The position numbers and the translations under genes were made by a program. The notes under the pieces were generated by a model. That model did no database searches. It saw only the letters and a program-made list of their open reading frames with translations, and was not told the origin of the DNA. A stretch of DNA of 64,000 bases from Oscillospiraceae bacterium (GTDB taxonomy: Bacteria; Bacillota; Clostridia; Oscillospirales; Oscillospiraceae): contig WRDH01000001.1 of the NCBI GenBank assembly GCA_009783555.1, positions 62,001 to 126,000 on the forward strand. Reading direction: 5' to 3'. Shown in pieces: positions 9,549-14,980 of this stretch (positions are counted from its first letter, which is position 1; each line of letters starts with the position of its first letter).

Positions 9549-11480
9549 ATGCCGGGTAAGTTAAAGTCACTATTACCACCGAAATGGAAGATGGCAGCGA
9601 TACTGTCAATATCGTTTGCATTACCGTTTCTGGTGTTCATTTATACAGTTTTCGATTTGTACCTGCACAATCCGGCGGACTTTACCGTAAGCTGGAAATT
9701 TTTGCTGCCACCGTTATCGGGCGTATTTTTTCTTTCATTCTTTGCATTTACGTTTATACTGTTACTTTTATGGAACAAGAAATTAATAACAGGTCTGATT
9801 TTACTTTTGCTTTGCGGGATATTGGTTGTTGCCGCGAGATTTGTTTTAGGGATTTTTACGTTTGCATTCTTATATATAATAAGTGCTATCGTGATTATGA
9901 TGGTCATATGGGTTTTGATTGTAAAGCTGTTGAAAGAGGATGCGATTGATTATGCGATGCTATTGATGTGGGGGTCTCTTGTTGCAGCATACGTTCAAAC
10001 CTTGTTTTTAAACGGTAACATGGAAGCCATCATGGGACACCAAACGGACTATAGCGAACGAACAGCCGGTAATATCATCAACTTGTTTATCTGGGCTGTG
10101 ATTATACTCATTCCTTTGTGTGTTTTTATATTTTTTAAGATAAAAAAGAAGAGCTTTCATTACGAGAAAGCGTTTGTCTTTTCATTGGTTATTTTATCCG
10201 GTATGCAAATCGCCGGACTGGTTTCTACAGCCTTAACGACTGAATTGCCGGAAGGATATGATCAAGAGCCGGTGTATTTTACACACAATGCCGCCGTAAA
10301 CTTTAATTCCGATGAGAATATAGTAGTTTTTGTGATTGACACATTTGATGTTATTTTAGTGCGGCACGCATTAGAGCTAAACCCGCATTTATGGGAGTAT
10401 TTTACCGGTTTTACTTATTACGAGGACAATACTTCAGAATACTTCGATACCGTTGCATCAGTGACATCGATGTTGACACAGCATCATATACTGCCGTGGG
10501 AAAGCGGCTGGACGTACATTGACAGGGCGTGGGACAGGCATACAATGATCGACACTCTAAGAGATAACGGGTATAGCACAAACCTTTTTCTTGACCGGAC
10601 ATGCTCGTTTGGCAAATATGAGAATATAAGAGGCAGGACCGATAATACAATTGTGGCTGACAGGTTGAATATACACTTCAGGCATTTTATACCGGTGACT
10701 ACACGTCTGTCGCTTGGGAGGTGATCACCGTATTTTCTGAAAAACACATAACTTTCAACCATCGGTCCGGATTTTAGTAATGCCTTCTTCTTCCTTGATG
10801 CCGAAAATGATGACTCGACTTTTATTCCTGTCGTCAGCAGATATTCCGATATGCGATTTTACAGATATATTAAAGAAGCGGAGTTTTCGGCGGATCGCGA
10901 TGAAAATTTCTTTATGTTTATGCATATAAACGGTCCTCATTCCTACGGCGACAGAAATGATCCGGGTTCTTGGGGATTTCATTATGATGAAGTAAGCGGA
11001 CAAATGAGGTACGGCGGGGATATGTATGACATCATCCATGCGTGTTTTGAAATGCTTAACCTTTATTTCAACAAGATGAAAGAAATCGGGGTATATGACA
11101 ACAGTACGATCATTATACTCGGTGACCATGGACTAAGATGGCGTTATCCTGAAACCACAGCATTGCTTATTAAGCCAAAAGGCTCAACCGGAGCATTGAC
11201 GTTAGATACTACTACTTCGCTTTCAAACAAATACTTTACATCAAGCATACTGGAGGCGGCAGGATTACCGAACGGGGAGTTCGGGGTATCACATTTCGAC
11301 ATTATCGATGGCGCGGCACCCGCTTCTCCAAAAAGGATTATATATGTAAAAGGGCTAAACTCAACAACTCCAAACGGGCGTGTATACGGTGATTACGGGG
11401 TGTGGGAAATCGTCGGTGACGCTAATGCGAAAGAGAGCTGGACTTTTGTTCCCCGAGACCCATTAGACTTTTTCCCCTGA
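9549..11480 (+). pseudogene. Membrane-anchored sulfatase-like (alkaline phosphatase superfamily) protein, two compensating frameshifts
   Basis: The N-terminal 220 residues hold about six hydrophobic helices. The outer domain begins NIVVFVIDTFD, contains a YFDTVASVTSMLTQ segment where LTA-synthase-like enzymes have the catalytic threonine, and ends with IIILGDHGLRWR, a metal-binding DHG motif. The family includes lipoteichoic acid synthases and phosphoglycerol or phosphoethanolamine transferases. The frame stops at 10722-10724 and again at 10749-10751. Between about 10688 and 10760 the sensible protein continues in the +1 frame (TGDYTSVAWEVITVFSEKH), then returns to the first frame with IGPDFSNAFFFLD. 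One lost T in the TTTT run near 10685 and one extra base near 10760 would explain this. Sequencing error and recent gene decay are both possible. The promoter is perfect and the start ATG has a poor ribosome-binding site. Confidence 0.7.
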
Positions 11481-11484
11481 TGTA

Positions 11485-13038
11485 CTACTCTCGTTCCTTC
11501 AAATAACTGCCTGCATCCTTAAAGAAGCTTGCGACTATTATGCAGACGACTATTCCTATCGGGAATGCAGCTATGATTGCCACGCTTTGCAAGCTTTGCA
11601 ATGCGCTGTCAGAGAATATCAGACCAATTGGAAACATAATCAATAGAATAGCCCAAAATGCGCGAACCTTTCTACTTGGCTCCTGACCGGGGTCGAGTTT
11701 TTTATGTGAGTAACATGAGACGACCATTGTCAAAGCGTCGAAGGTAGTTGCATAAAAGATTACCATGTTTATTACTAATATGGTTAATGCGACCGAAGGT
11801 AATGGCAGAGTTTCGAAAATCCCGATTATGATACTTGAAATCGATTCGGGTGCCCAATCGGAAGCAGCTATTGATCCTGCTGCGTCAAATCCTTGTCCGG
11901 GATTGGCGTTAAATTTCATTTGCTGTGACAGTCCGTAGTTTCCGAGGATAATAAAAGAAGTGAAGGTTCCCGCCAGTCCCCAGAAATATGCGCCGAGTAC
12001 CGTGTTTTTGAGTGTTCTGCCTTTGCTTATCATACCTATGAAGAACGGTGTCGCTATGCACCATGCCATCCAGTATGCCCAGAAGAAGACTGTCCAGTCT
12101 TGAACGAAGGAGTGTTCTCTAAGCGGGTCGGTATATGTAGCTAGTCCTATGAAGTTTTGTGCCAGGTTTCCGATTGCGGCAACTCCTGTTTCCAGGATAT
12201 ACCGGGTTTCGCCACCCAGGAATAAGAAGTAAAACAAAAACGCAAAGAATAAGTATACCGAGAACCTCGCTAATCGTGCTATGCCTCCCATTCCTGTCAA
12301 TACCGCAATTGTATATACAATAGCAATGAGCAGTAATATGCATATAGTCAGTGCAGCACTTGTTGCAATTCCGAAAACATGAGCGAATGCGCCTGCGAGC
12401 AAGGGGGTCGCCAGCGAGAATGTTGTAGCTGTTCCGGCGATGAGGGAGAAGATTGCTACTGTGTCGATGATTCTGCCGACGATTCCATCCACCTTGTTGC
12501 CGAAGAGCGGGCGGCAGGCTTCGGAGAATTTTTGTTTGGTTCTGCCTCTTACGTGCAGCATAAACCCGAATGCTGCTGCCAGTACAATATAAAATGCCCA
12601 TGCAATAGGTCCCCAATGGAACAGCGGGAAAGTTGATGCCCAGACTTGCGTGCTGCCGAGTTCCGATATGCGGGGTTCGCTTGCATACATCGCCCATTCG
12701 CTGAGGGAATAGAATAAAATGTCTGCTGCCATTGTGGCTGTGAAGATCATTGAGCCCCAGGCAAATGAGCTGTATTGTGGGTTTTCGTCGATTGTGCCCA
12801 GCTTGATTTTTCCGAATCTTGAGAAGGCTATGTACATAGTCGCTCCCAGTGCAAACAATCCCATAAGGATATAATAGATTCCCATGTCATCGCCCAGAAA
12901 TCCTCTGATTATCAAGAGAACTCTGTCGGCTCCTTCGACAAATGCGAATAGCAGTGCTAATGTCAAAACTCCAACAAGCGGGACAATCATTGATATCCAG
13001 TCGATGTTTGACTTTTGTGTGTTTGTTTCGTTATTCAC
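11485..13038 (-). CDS. BCCT-family transporter, probable choline or betaine uptake
   Basis: A 517-residue protein with about 12 membrane helices. It carries the BCCT signature region FFWAYWMAWCIATPFFIGMI followed by SKGRTLKN, and other tryptophan-rich helices such as FPLFHWGPIAWAFY. The family uses sodium or proton gradients to import quaternary amines such as choline, betaine and carnitine. Position decides for choline here: the gene follows the fused cytidylyltransferase/choline kinase with an 8-bp overlap, so LicB's usual role as choline permease would be taken by a BCCT protein. The start is a GTG at 13038 with AGGAGG nine bases upstream. Confidence 0.9.
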   Translation of the reverse strand: MNNETNTQKSNIDWISMIVPLVGVLTLALLFAFVEGADRVLLIIRGFLGDDMGIYYILMGLFALGATMYIAFSRFGKIKLGTIDENPQYSSFAWGSMIFTATMAADILFYSLSEWAMYASEPRISELGSTQVWASTFPLFHWGPIAWAFYIVLAAAFGFMLHVRGRTKQKFSEACRPLFGNKVDGIVGRIIDTVAIFSLIAGTATTFSLATPLLAGAFAHVFGIATSAALTICILLLIAIVYTIAVLTGMGGIARLARFSVYLFFAFLFYFLFLGGETRYILETGVAAIGNLAQNFIGLATYTDPLREHSFVQDWTVFFWAYWMAWCIATPFFIGMISKGRTLKNTVLGAYFWGLAGTFTSFIILGNYGLSQQMKFNANPGQGFDAAGSIAASDWAPESISSIIIGIFETLPLPSVALTILVINMVIFYATTFDALTMVVSCYSHKKLDPGQEPSRKVRAFWAILLIMFPIGLIFSDSALQSLQSVAIIAAFPIGIVVCIIVASFFKDAGSYLKERE

Positions 13039-14869
13039 CTTTTTCTTCCTCCTGATTTTTGAAAATTCTATAATAATCCTTGGCGAATCTATACTGCCTC
13101 AAAGAGTATTCACCGAATTCTACGCCCATGTGGCTTTTGTATTCGCACCAGTTGCTCCAGAGCATGCCGCACATTGCTATGTATGCGTAGATTTTACGTC
13201 TGGTTACTTCGGAGCAGCCTTCCGTGAAGTAGCAATCTATCAATGTTTCGACCTGATCCCTGTCATACATTGCATAGACTGCGAACATGGCGATGTCTAC
13301 GTGCGGGTCTTGCATGGCGGAGTATTCCCAGTCTATGAGGCGGATTCTTTGTTCTTTTCCGGTTTCTTCAAAGAGGAAGTTGTCGGGGACAGCATCGATG
13401 TGGGTGAGAGCCCGGTCTTTGCTGATGGAGTCAATAAACTTTTTCATGCTCATTACATTGTCTTTTATTTCTTTATAATCACTGAAATATGAGTCGGGAG
13501 TAAGCCAGAGGCTTTCGTAGTATTCAATACGTTCAAAAATGTCGAATGTGTGGTCAACACTAAGCTTCATATTATGGAATTCTCTCAGCTTTTTCATGCA
13601 GGCTTTGACATCCTTTATATCAAACGGGTCACATACTCTTGCGGTTTCGAGGTATTTTGTAACTTTATAGCCGGTTTTCGGGTCGATATATATAACATCG
13701 TCACTGATGTTTAGGTTAGAAATGATTTCATAAACCCGAAACTCGTTCTCCCGGTCTATCATTTTGTCGGTGCCTTCTCCGGGGATGCGCATGATGTATT
13801 TTATGCTGTCATATGTAAATATGAATGAGTGATTTGTCATTCCTATTTTTATCGGCTCGATATTTTTTATTTTGTCTTCCGAACAGTTGAATACTTTTGC
13901 TATGGCTTTCATGATAACGCTGTTTGAGGTGTCATTGTATGTGTGGTCGAAAAGTCTCAGTTCCTCTAGGTTTTCAAACTCAAGGACGTTGCCGGTTTGT
14001 TTGTTCATGTATATGGGCATGGTTTTAATATTGTCAATAAGTATTTGCTCCCAGAAGTAATCGCCTGTTCCCGGTCTGTTAAAGTAGTTATTTAGGTGGG
14101 AACGAAATGCAGCGGACAGGTCGGATGTGAAGTAAGCCGGTCCAATCAGTGCCCAGGAGTTTTCACCGCCGACTTTTATACTTTCGATTTTGTCTGATGC
14201 TGATGAAGTTATGTACCATTCGCCTGTGTTATCTTCGATAAATACGCATGAGTACCAGCTCCGTGATTCATATAGATTGAAGATGTTTTTTTCGATGTAG
14301 AAATCTGACATGAGAAGGTATGAGTTGTCCAGCCACTCTCTTGCACAATACAGGCTGCTGAGGTTGTTTTTTGTTGTATACTCGGGGTTAAATACGAGCT
14401 TTACACCGTACTTGTCAATCAGATAGTCGAAGCTTTCTTTTTTGTAACCGACTACGATAATTATTTCATTGATGCCTTTTTCAATGAGTTGCTCAATCTG
14501 TCTTTCAATCATGGGCTGTCCGTAAACTTTGAGCAAACCCTTGGGTTTTTCGTAGGTGAGCGGCACAAAGCGGGAGCCGAAGCCGGCGGCGAGGATTATT
14601 GCATTCTTGACTTTGTATTTGTTAAGCTGCGTCTGCCCTTTTTTGGTGAGGCAAGACAGGGGACGGTTCTCTGTCTTACCGGCAGGAGAACAAGACAGAG
14701 AACCGTCCCCTGTCTTACTGTATTCGATTAATCCGGCATCAAGGCACTCTTTAAGAGTGCTGTTAACAAGACCAAGTGACAGCTTGGTTGCTGCAGCCAG
14801 TTCACGTTGTGTTGCACGAGGATTATCGAGCAGATATCTGCAAATTGGAACAAAATGTTTGATTTCCAT
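13031..14869 (-). CDS. licCA: Winged-helix / phosphocholine cytidylyltransferase / choline kinase fusion (LicC-LicA type)
   Basis: A 612-residue three-part protein. Residues 1-75 are a winged helix-turn-helix (helices in TQRELAAATKLSLGLVN). Residues 88-300 are a nucleotidyltransferase with AIILAAGFGSRFVPLTYEKP, the G-x-G-x-R and K-P signature of LicC. Residues 320-612 are a choline/aminoglycoside kinase fold with HIDAVPDN at 490-497 and IDWEY at 512-516. It should phosphorylate choline and activate it to CDP-choline. A 66-bp palindromic element is inserted in frame at residues 52-73, in the expected wing of the DNA-binding domain. I start at 14869: an upstream in-frame ATG lies on the -35 box. 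The operator-like repeat at 14889-14925 suggests self-regulation. No licD was found. Confidence 0.88.
   Translation of the reverse strand: MEIKHFVPICRYLLDNPRATQRELAAATKLSLGLVNSTLKECLDAGLIEYSKTGDGSLSCSPAGKTENRPLSCLTKKGQTQLNKYKVKNAIILAAGFGSRFVPLTYEKPKGLLKVYGQPMIERQIEQLIEKGINEIIIVVGYKKESFDYLIDKYGVKLVFNPEYTTKNNLSSLYCAREWLDNSYLLMSDFYIEKNIFNLYESRSWYSCVFIEDNTGEWYITSSASDKIESIKVGGENSWALIGPAYFTSDLSAAFRSHLNNYFNRPGTGDYFWEQILIDNIKTMPIYMNKQTGNVLEFENLEELRLFDHTYNDTSNSVIMKAIAKVFNCSEDKIKNIEPIKIGMTNHSFIFTYDSIKYIMRIPGEGTDKMIDRENEFRVYEIISNLNISDDVIYIDPKTGYKVTKYLETARVCDPFDIKDVKACMKKLREFHNMKLSVDHTFDIFERIEYYESLWLTPDSYFSDYKEIKDNVMSMKKFIDSISKDRALTHIDAVPDNFLFEETGKEQRIRLIDWEYSAMQDPHVDIAMFAVYAMYDRDQVETLIDCYFTEGCSEVTRRKIYAYIAMCGMLWSNWCEYKSHMGVEFGEYSLRQYRFAKDYYRIFKNQEEEKGE
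14653..14718. repeat. Palindromic element A1, in frame inside licCA
   Basis: Two inverted copies of a unit AAGACAGGGGACGGTTCTCT plus GTCTTAC, about 27 bp each, separated by a 12-bp centre. The whole 66 bp equals 22 codons and is read through as GDGSLSCSPAGKTENRPLSC on the minus strand. A near-identical element is at 60209-60276 inside another gene. Confidence 0.9.
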
Positions 14870-14888
14870 GGAAATTATTTCTCCCTGA

Positions 14889-14925
14889 TGTTCAATATTG
14901 GCGAGTATATACGGAATATTGAACA
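14889..14925. promoter_or_regulatory. Operator-like inverted repeat around the licCA -10 box
   Basis: TGTTCAATATT (14889-14899) and its exact reverse complement AATATTGAACA (14915-14925) are separated by 15 bases. The licCA -10 box lies in the gap and the upstream arm fills most of the spacer toward the -35 box. A protein bound to both arms would block RNA polymerase. The winged-helix domain of LicCA itself is the obvious candidate ligand. Confidence 0.75.
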
Positions 14926-14932
14926 TTGTCAA
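14904..14932 (-). promoter_or_regulatory. Sigma-A promoter for licCA and the BCCT gene
   Basis: On the minus strand: a perfect TTGACA (14927-14932), 17-bp spacer, TATACT (14904-14909). Transcription should begin near 14897, within the downstream arm of the inverted repeat, 28 bases before the ATG at 14869. Confidence 0.85.
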
Positions 14933-14945
14933 GATAAATTTTGAA

Positions 14946-14980
14946 GAAGACAGATGAACCGTCCCCGTGGCTCGTGTCTT
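14946..14980. repeat. Palindromic element A2 (half-length), between divergent promoters
   Basis: A degenerate single unit of the same family as 14653-14718: AAGACAGATGAACCGTCCCC, a short centre and GTGTCTT. It occupies the space between the -35 boxes of the licCA promoter and of the promoter at 14986. Confidence 0.65.

Follow-up and report, generated by a model that had tools for sequence, protein, structure and literature searches.

Can an enzyme of choline metabolism also serve as the repressor of its own operon? To our knowledge, few enzymes double as transcription factors, and most of these are old textbook cases. The question is raised by a locus of an Oscillospiraceae bacterium (GenBank assembly GCA_009783555.1), in the 64,000-nucleotide stretch analysed here (contig WRDH01000001.1, positions 62,001 to 126,000; hereafter the window). 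There, the gene licCA encodes a winged helix-turn-helix (wHTH) domain joined to a cytidylyltransferase (LicC) and a choline kinase (LicA), and an earlier note on this DNA proposed that the enzyme represses its own operon from an inverted repeat wrapped around the promoter. We consider it very probable that LicCA, a choline kinase/cytidylyltransferase, also acts as transcriptional repressor of the operon that encodes it and that serves choline uptake and activation. This reading is carried by the sequence, namely by the domains, the conserved operator and its position, the joint loss of operator and wHTH, the near-exclusive link of the operator to wHTH-LicCA operons, and the operon itself. The gene and its domains are as follows.

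13031 to 14869, minus strand: licCA, the wHTH-LicC-LicA open reading frame (ORF); 612 amino acids, ATG start, stop codon included (translation, Pfam)
14723 to 14839, minus strand: winged helix-turn-helix, residues 11-49 (PF13412 HTH_24; modelled here with a predicted local distance difference test score, pLDDT, of about 90)
14735 to 14776, minus strand: predicted recognition helix, residues 32-45 (model helix H32-45; S-L-G-x-V-N motif)
13943 to 14611, minus strand: LicC domain (CTP:phosphocholine cytidylyltransferase), residues 87-309 (1jyk, PF00483, PF12804)
13082 to 13918, minus strand: LicA domain (choline kinase), residues 318-596 (4r77, 4r7b, PF01633)

The N-terminal winged helix postulated earlier was borne out. 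PF13412 matched residues 11-49 above its gathering cut-off (E 1.5e-9; 37.7 bits against 21.9), and AlphaFold returned, with high confidence, the order H-H-H-beta-wing-beta-H. MarR regulators are the closest solved folds among the PDB matches, and the domain scores below the curated cut-offs of MarR_2 (24.8 against 27) and MarR_EPS TIGR04176 (24.9 against 88). Within it, S31, L32, G33 and N36 of the S-L-G-x-V-N motif occupy nearly invariant alignment columns, and the motif QR...SLGxVN ranks among the best-conserved N-terminal parts of LicCA homologues. Both catalytic domains resemble enzymes of known structure. Residues 81-309 match pneumococcal LicC (1jyk) with E 3e-47 and a fold TMt of 0.92, with PF00483 and PF12804 both above cut-off, while the kinase domain matches the solved LicA 4r77 (E 8e-38; TMt 0.87 to 4r7b) and PF01633 (67.5 bits, cut-off 29). 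The choline kinase motifs HxDxxxxN and DWE are present, and since H490, D492, N497 and D513, together with W514 and E515, are invariant over 61 sequences, the window LicCA is expected, by homology, to be an active choline kinase/cytidylyltransferase.

Relatives of licCA were found at 80 loci in other genomes, and the wHTH-LicC-LicA architecture holds nearly throughout. These homologues align to the ATG at 14869, which gives 612 amino acids and displaces the start assumed in the earlier note, a TTG at 14932 (633 amino acids) that falls inside the promoter. With the conserved start at 14869, the inverted repeat is therefore wholly non-coding in the window.

14915 to 14926, no strand assigned: operator half adjoining the -35; the minus strand reads ATGTTCAATATT
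14888 to 14899, no strand assigned: operator half 3' of the -10; the minus strand reads AATATTGAACAT
14904 to 14932, minus strand: sigma-70-type promoter TTGACA-17-TATACT (11/12 bases, -10 within the operator gap)

Read along the forward strand, these halves form a perfect 12-bp inverted repeat, ATGTTCAATATT (14888-14899) and AATATTGAACAT (14915-14926), with 100% complementary arms and 15 nt between them; the arms are thus slightly longer than the 11 bp first claimed. The promoter, described earlier as wrapped by the repeat with its -10 in the gap, lies exactly so (14932 to 14904) and is the best among 11 promoter-like matches in the region. The full repeat pair, allowing a gap of 10-20, occurs once in the whole 2.75-Mb genome.

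Is this repeat a property of the family? Across 83 distinct homologues, the licCA promoter or the start codon carries a core TGTTCA-N24-26-TGAACA. Of the 83 licCA starts, 68 match this core in 11 or 12 of its 12 bases; the same score was reached by 3 of 1660 shuffled sequences. As a further control, 552 starts of other ORFs from these loci yielded only 7 such scores, of which 5 are the same operators read from the other strand, a licCA paralogue in L066, or a site before the transporter gene in L075. Exact GTTCA/TGAAC pairs in 805 kb of loci concentrate at gap 24 (40 pairs) and gap 25 (16 pairs), nearly all at licCA starts, with at most 6 at any other gap. A chance palindrome was ruled out by the shuffles, the 552-ORF control and the whole-genome counts. 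The homologues closest to the window are instructive: L007-L009 (73, 65 and 60% identity) keep TGTTCA/TGAACA at near-equal spacing around the -10, with one base changed in L007, while the remaining upstream DNA has diverged from the window; L010, a 51% homologue with a degenerate recognition helix, has no operator site. The expectation that the repeat would recur upstream of wHTH-bearing homologues was therefore upheld for the TGTTCA/TGAACA core. It failed for the full 11-mer TGTTCAATATT, which was discarded as a family motif: conservation does not extend past TGTTCA, and the outer bases are clade-specific (mostly TGTTCAYRAA). The motif derived from the first set, mostly Bacillota, predicted the sites of Treponema relatives, mostly at 11-12 of 12 bases. 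Within the Treponema family, the wHTH-bearing members show the site with gaps of 24-26, most often 26 (10/12 bases at gap 26 in L121).

Where the operator sits bears on what a bound protein would do. In 57 loci the right half is A-TGAACA, that is, the start codon followed by an Asn codon, with the left half at -29/-30. This start-codon half-site probably explains the conserved Met-Asn start of these proteins. The converse, that the right half is kept merely because it encodes Met-Asn, was ruled out by the non-coding left half, which matches at least 5 of 6 bases at -29/-30 in 56 of 84 loci, and by 16 loci, the window included, in which the whole operator is non-coding and the flanking bases are unconserved. 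The centres of the two hexamers are separated by 30-32 bp, roughly three turns of the helix. The commonest arrangement, seen in 30 of 55 assignable cases, has the left half 2-20 bp downstream of the -10; the -10 lies inside the operator gap in the window clade and L088, and in L115 the right half stands between -35 and -10 with the left half upstream of the -35. In several loci (L018, L033, L043, L050, L074 and others) the right half at the start codon extends to a full or near-full 12-bp palindrome, TGTTCATGAACA, which may mean that a separate dimer occupies each arm of the operator.

An operator over the -35/-10, the start site or the start codon would collide with RNA polymerase, and from this we infer that LicCA represses rather than activates. 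Regulator polarity is unreadable from sequence alone, and the L115 site, with its left half upstream of the -35, would suit a LicCA that binds the operator and activates, or both activates and represses. Positions at the -10, 3' of it or over the start codon, which most operators occupy, would occlude polymerase, and we give activation a slim chance. A second alternative dispenses with protein binding altogether and takes the repeat for an RNA hairpin acting in translational control or as an attenuator. The window repeat can fold single-stranded (z -2.6 with DNA parameters), and the repeat spans the ribosome-binding site and start codon in the 57 loci mentioned above. However, in the window, L007-L009, L088 and L115 the left half stands 5' of the -10, where no transcript would include it; the arms keep a fixed TGTTCA/TGAACA rather than covarying, with only the 24-26 nt spacing kept; and site presence follows a protein domain. 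A hairpin is thus highly improbable.

The dependence on the protein domain was examined in a pooled set of 120 relatives, of which 96 have wHTH and operator, 21 have neither, 3 have the wHTH only and none has the operator only. Put differently, the operator is present in 96 of 99 relatives with an intact wHTH and in 0 of 21 with a lost or degenerate one, where intact means at least 30 bits, a cut-off chosen after the scores were seen that decides the class of L131. Because 398 sampled genomes of the phylum held too few HTH-less relatives, a second family of the phylum was added; several loci come from metagenome-assembled genomes and may be misbinned. On a FastTree tree of the LicC domain, 6 independent contrasts were available, the minimum number for significance, and all 6 were concordant (two-sided sign test, p 0.031). 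Loci outside the motif-discovery set behave alike: the wHTH-intact L094 and L100 carry the site, and none of 14 relatives with an absent or degenerate wHTH does. Treponema family members with a degenerate wHTH likewise show no site. The LicCA of L131, from a 1.1-Mb Treponemataceae genome, keeps a wHTH-like N-terminus without an operator; regulation there may be lost through genome reduction.

We also scanned 50 whole genomes with the extended pattern GTTCAYGA-N17-19-TYCRTGAAM. Of the 10 matches, 8 were operators already known for licCA; a ninth, in G209, stands at the head of a second licC-wHTH-licCA operon, and G777 holds the tenth. Looser patterns gave whole-genome counts near those of a reversed-pattern control, with no large regulon seen; therefore a broad regulon is not claimed. 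A second wHTH-LicCA operon was noted in Lachnospiraceae AC2029 (L115, 591-5925), with licC first and its own operator; it adjoins a CodB-like transporter and a ThiD-like kinase, and its substrate may be other than choline.

These data bear on a third alternative, in which an unlinked transcription factor uses the operator and the wHTH of LicCA is a vestige or mediates protein contacts. Promoter palindromes are usually bound by dedicated regulators, and contact between LicCA and DNA is itself a prediction. Yet the operator and an intact LicCA wHTH go together through six independent losses, the extended sites in 50 genomes are limited to wHTH-LicCA operons bar one match, and QR...SLGxVN is strongly conserved, unlike a vestige. 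We therefore regard an unlinked factor as unlikely. For an enzyme that represses its own operon, as the earlier note put it, comparative genomics strongly supports the match between the wHTH and its own operator, and repression follows conditionally from operator position.

The second gene of the operon supplies the metabolic context.

11485 to 13038, minus strand: BCCT choline/betaine-type transporter, second operon gene (PF02028; overlaps the licCA end by 8 bp)

The transporter matches PF02028 (E 4e-117, 392 bits, cut-off 27) and falls just under the cut-off of TIGR00842 (400.2 against 407.55). A BCCT gene follows licCA in 71 loci, as a rule behind a second LicC gene. In L075, the BCCT gene is immediately preceded by a second TGTTCA-N25-TGAACA, some 2784 bases past the licCA start, which suggests separate control of uptake there. 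Conserved gene order and this second operator support the proposal that the transporter is controlled within the same operon. Of 18 genomes searched, 12 have LicD, and the family seen most often in the next genes is that of choline-binding repeats (5 of 37). Gene order and these neighbours thus mark the licCA operon as a unit for choline uptake and activation. Downstream of the BCCT gene, two adjacent plus-strand ORFs (9549-11480), of which only the second matches sulfatase, below cut-off, may be one broken sulfatase-like gene.

One peculiarity of the window LicCA lies within the wHTH itself.

14653 to 14716, no strand assigned: mobile palindromic repeat with 25-bp arms and a 14-nt loop, in frame in the wing coding region (residues about 52-73)

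This 64-bp palindrome has 11 arm matches across the genome and is absent from all aligned homologues. The palindromic GACAGGGGACGGTTCTCTGTC element also occurs in contigs C1, C15, C17 and C21 of genome G000, with several paired inverted copies, and a fragment of the same repeat family, GAACCGTCCCC, lies at 14956-14966, close 5' of the licCA promoter. A perfect long hairpin, GTTCATTGTCTTG...CAAGACAATGAAC, at C44:12212-12245 and C65:5116-5149 of G000 represents another family of palindromic repeats. In the model, the wing insertion forms a low-confidence loop and the wHTH helices are intact. Since the window operator is still perfect, we infer that the predicted DNA binding survives the insertion.

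Several observations weigh against an autorepressing LicCA. The repeat inserted in the wing could weaken DNA contact of the window protein, and LicD (PF04991) was not found in the window's genome, which is 92% complete. Three relatives with an intact wHTH, L035 (in which the recognition motif is altered), L042 and L073, are without a good site, and L131, which has a recognisable lower-scoring wHTH and no operator, counts as wHTH-lost only by the 30-bit cut-off. The half-sites lie about 100 angstroms apart, unusual for one wHTH dimer, and the oligomeric arrangement is therefore uncertain. Finally, physical binding, repression, oligomerization and ligand gating are all predictions.

In the mechanism that we propose for autorepression, the N-terminal wHTH would recognise TGTTCA, and a LicCA dimer or higher oligomer would hold the two inverted half-sites on the same DNA face. 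Once bound, LicCA would mask the -35/-10, the start codon or the start site and so keep licCA-(licC)-bcct from being transcribed. Its affinity for DNA would most likely depend on whether substrate or product occupies the catalytic domains; because the operon encodes uptake, the simplest choice would be that the apo-enzyme represses and that choline or a downstream intermediate induces. We give even chances to the fuller proposal of a widespread single-polypeptide switch, in which the LicCA active sites would sense choline, phosphocholine or CDP-choline and gate their own operon and uptake, with a right operator half that doubles as the start codon in most species and with a distribution common to Bacillota, Spirochaetota and probably Coriobacteriia.

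Autorepression by LicCA would offer a concrete model of choline sensing in bacteria that decorate their surface with choline, and an account of the Met-Asn start of LicCA proteins that is testable at a single base. The family spans gut Lachnospiraceae and Oscillospiraceae, Treponema relatives and others, and its operator is mapped to base resolution by conservation.

How does LicCA compare with known systems? The review PMC8590670, citing Kent et al. 2004, assigns a LicCA fusion enzyme of Treponema denticola to the phosphatidylcholine pathway; as in the window protein, LicC and LicA form a single chain, which makes CDP-choline. The review mentions no regulatory role. The Treponemataceae relatives analysed here have the same kind of wHTH, with an operator gap of 26. 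The pneumococcal lic1 locus (LicB, LicA, LicC) carries out the same two reactions and provides the closest solved structure for each domain, but as separate genes, with LicB instead of BCCT and with enzymes that lack a wHTH. MarR-type EPS-associated regulators and HTH_24 proteins have the winged-helix fold in common with the LicCA N-terminus; in LicCA this domain is fused to enzymes. The literature searched described no DNA-binding domain or operator for a LicCA fusion, and on enzyme-regulators it turned up only analogues. What appears to be new is thus the operator and the wHTH of LicCA; the fusion and the enzyme-regulator principle were already known. LicCA joins, in one chain, enzymes and a predicted DNA-binding domain conserved in relatives, with a conserved candidate operator at the promoter of its own pathway. 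These are two of the features by which an enzyme-regulator (trigger enzyme) is recognised; a further one, specific DNA binding with ligand-dependent regulation, is predicted for LicCA.

The nearest parallel is NadR, which combines a helix-turn-helix with an NMN adenylyltransferase and a ribosylnicotinamide kinase and controls genes of its pathway. In both proteins, a DNA-binding domain is joined to two enzymes of a single salvage pathway, a nucleotidyltransferase and a kinase. They differ in enzyme families, pathway, helix-turn-helix sequence and operator, and are not homologous as a whole. In this sense, LicCA would be an autorepressing enzyme of the NadR type.

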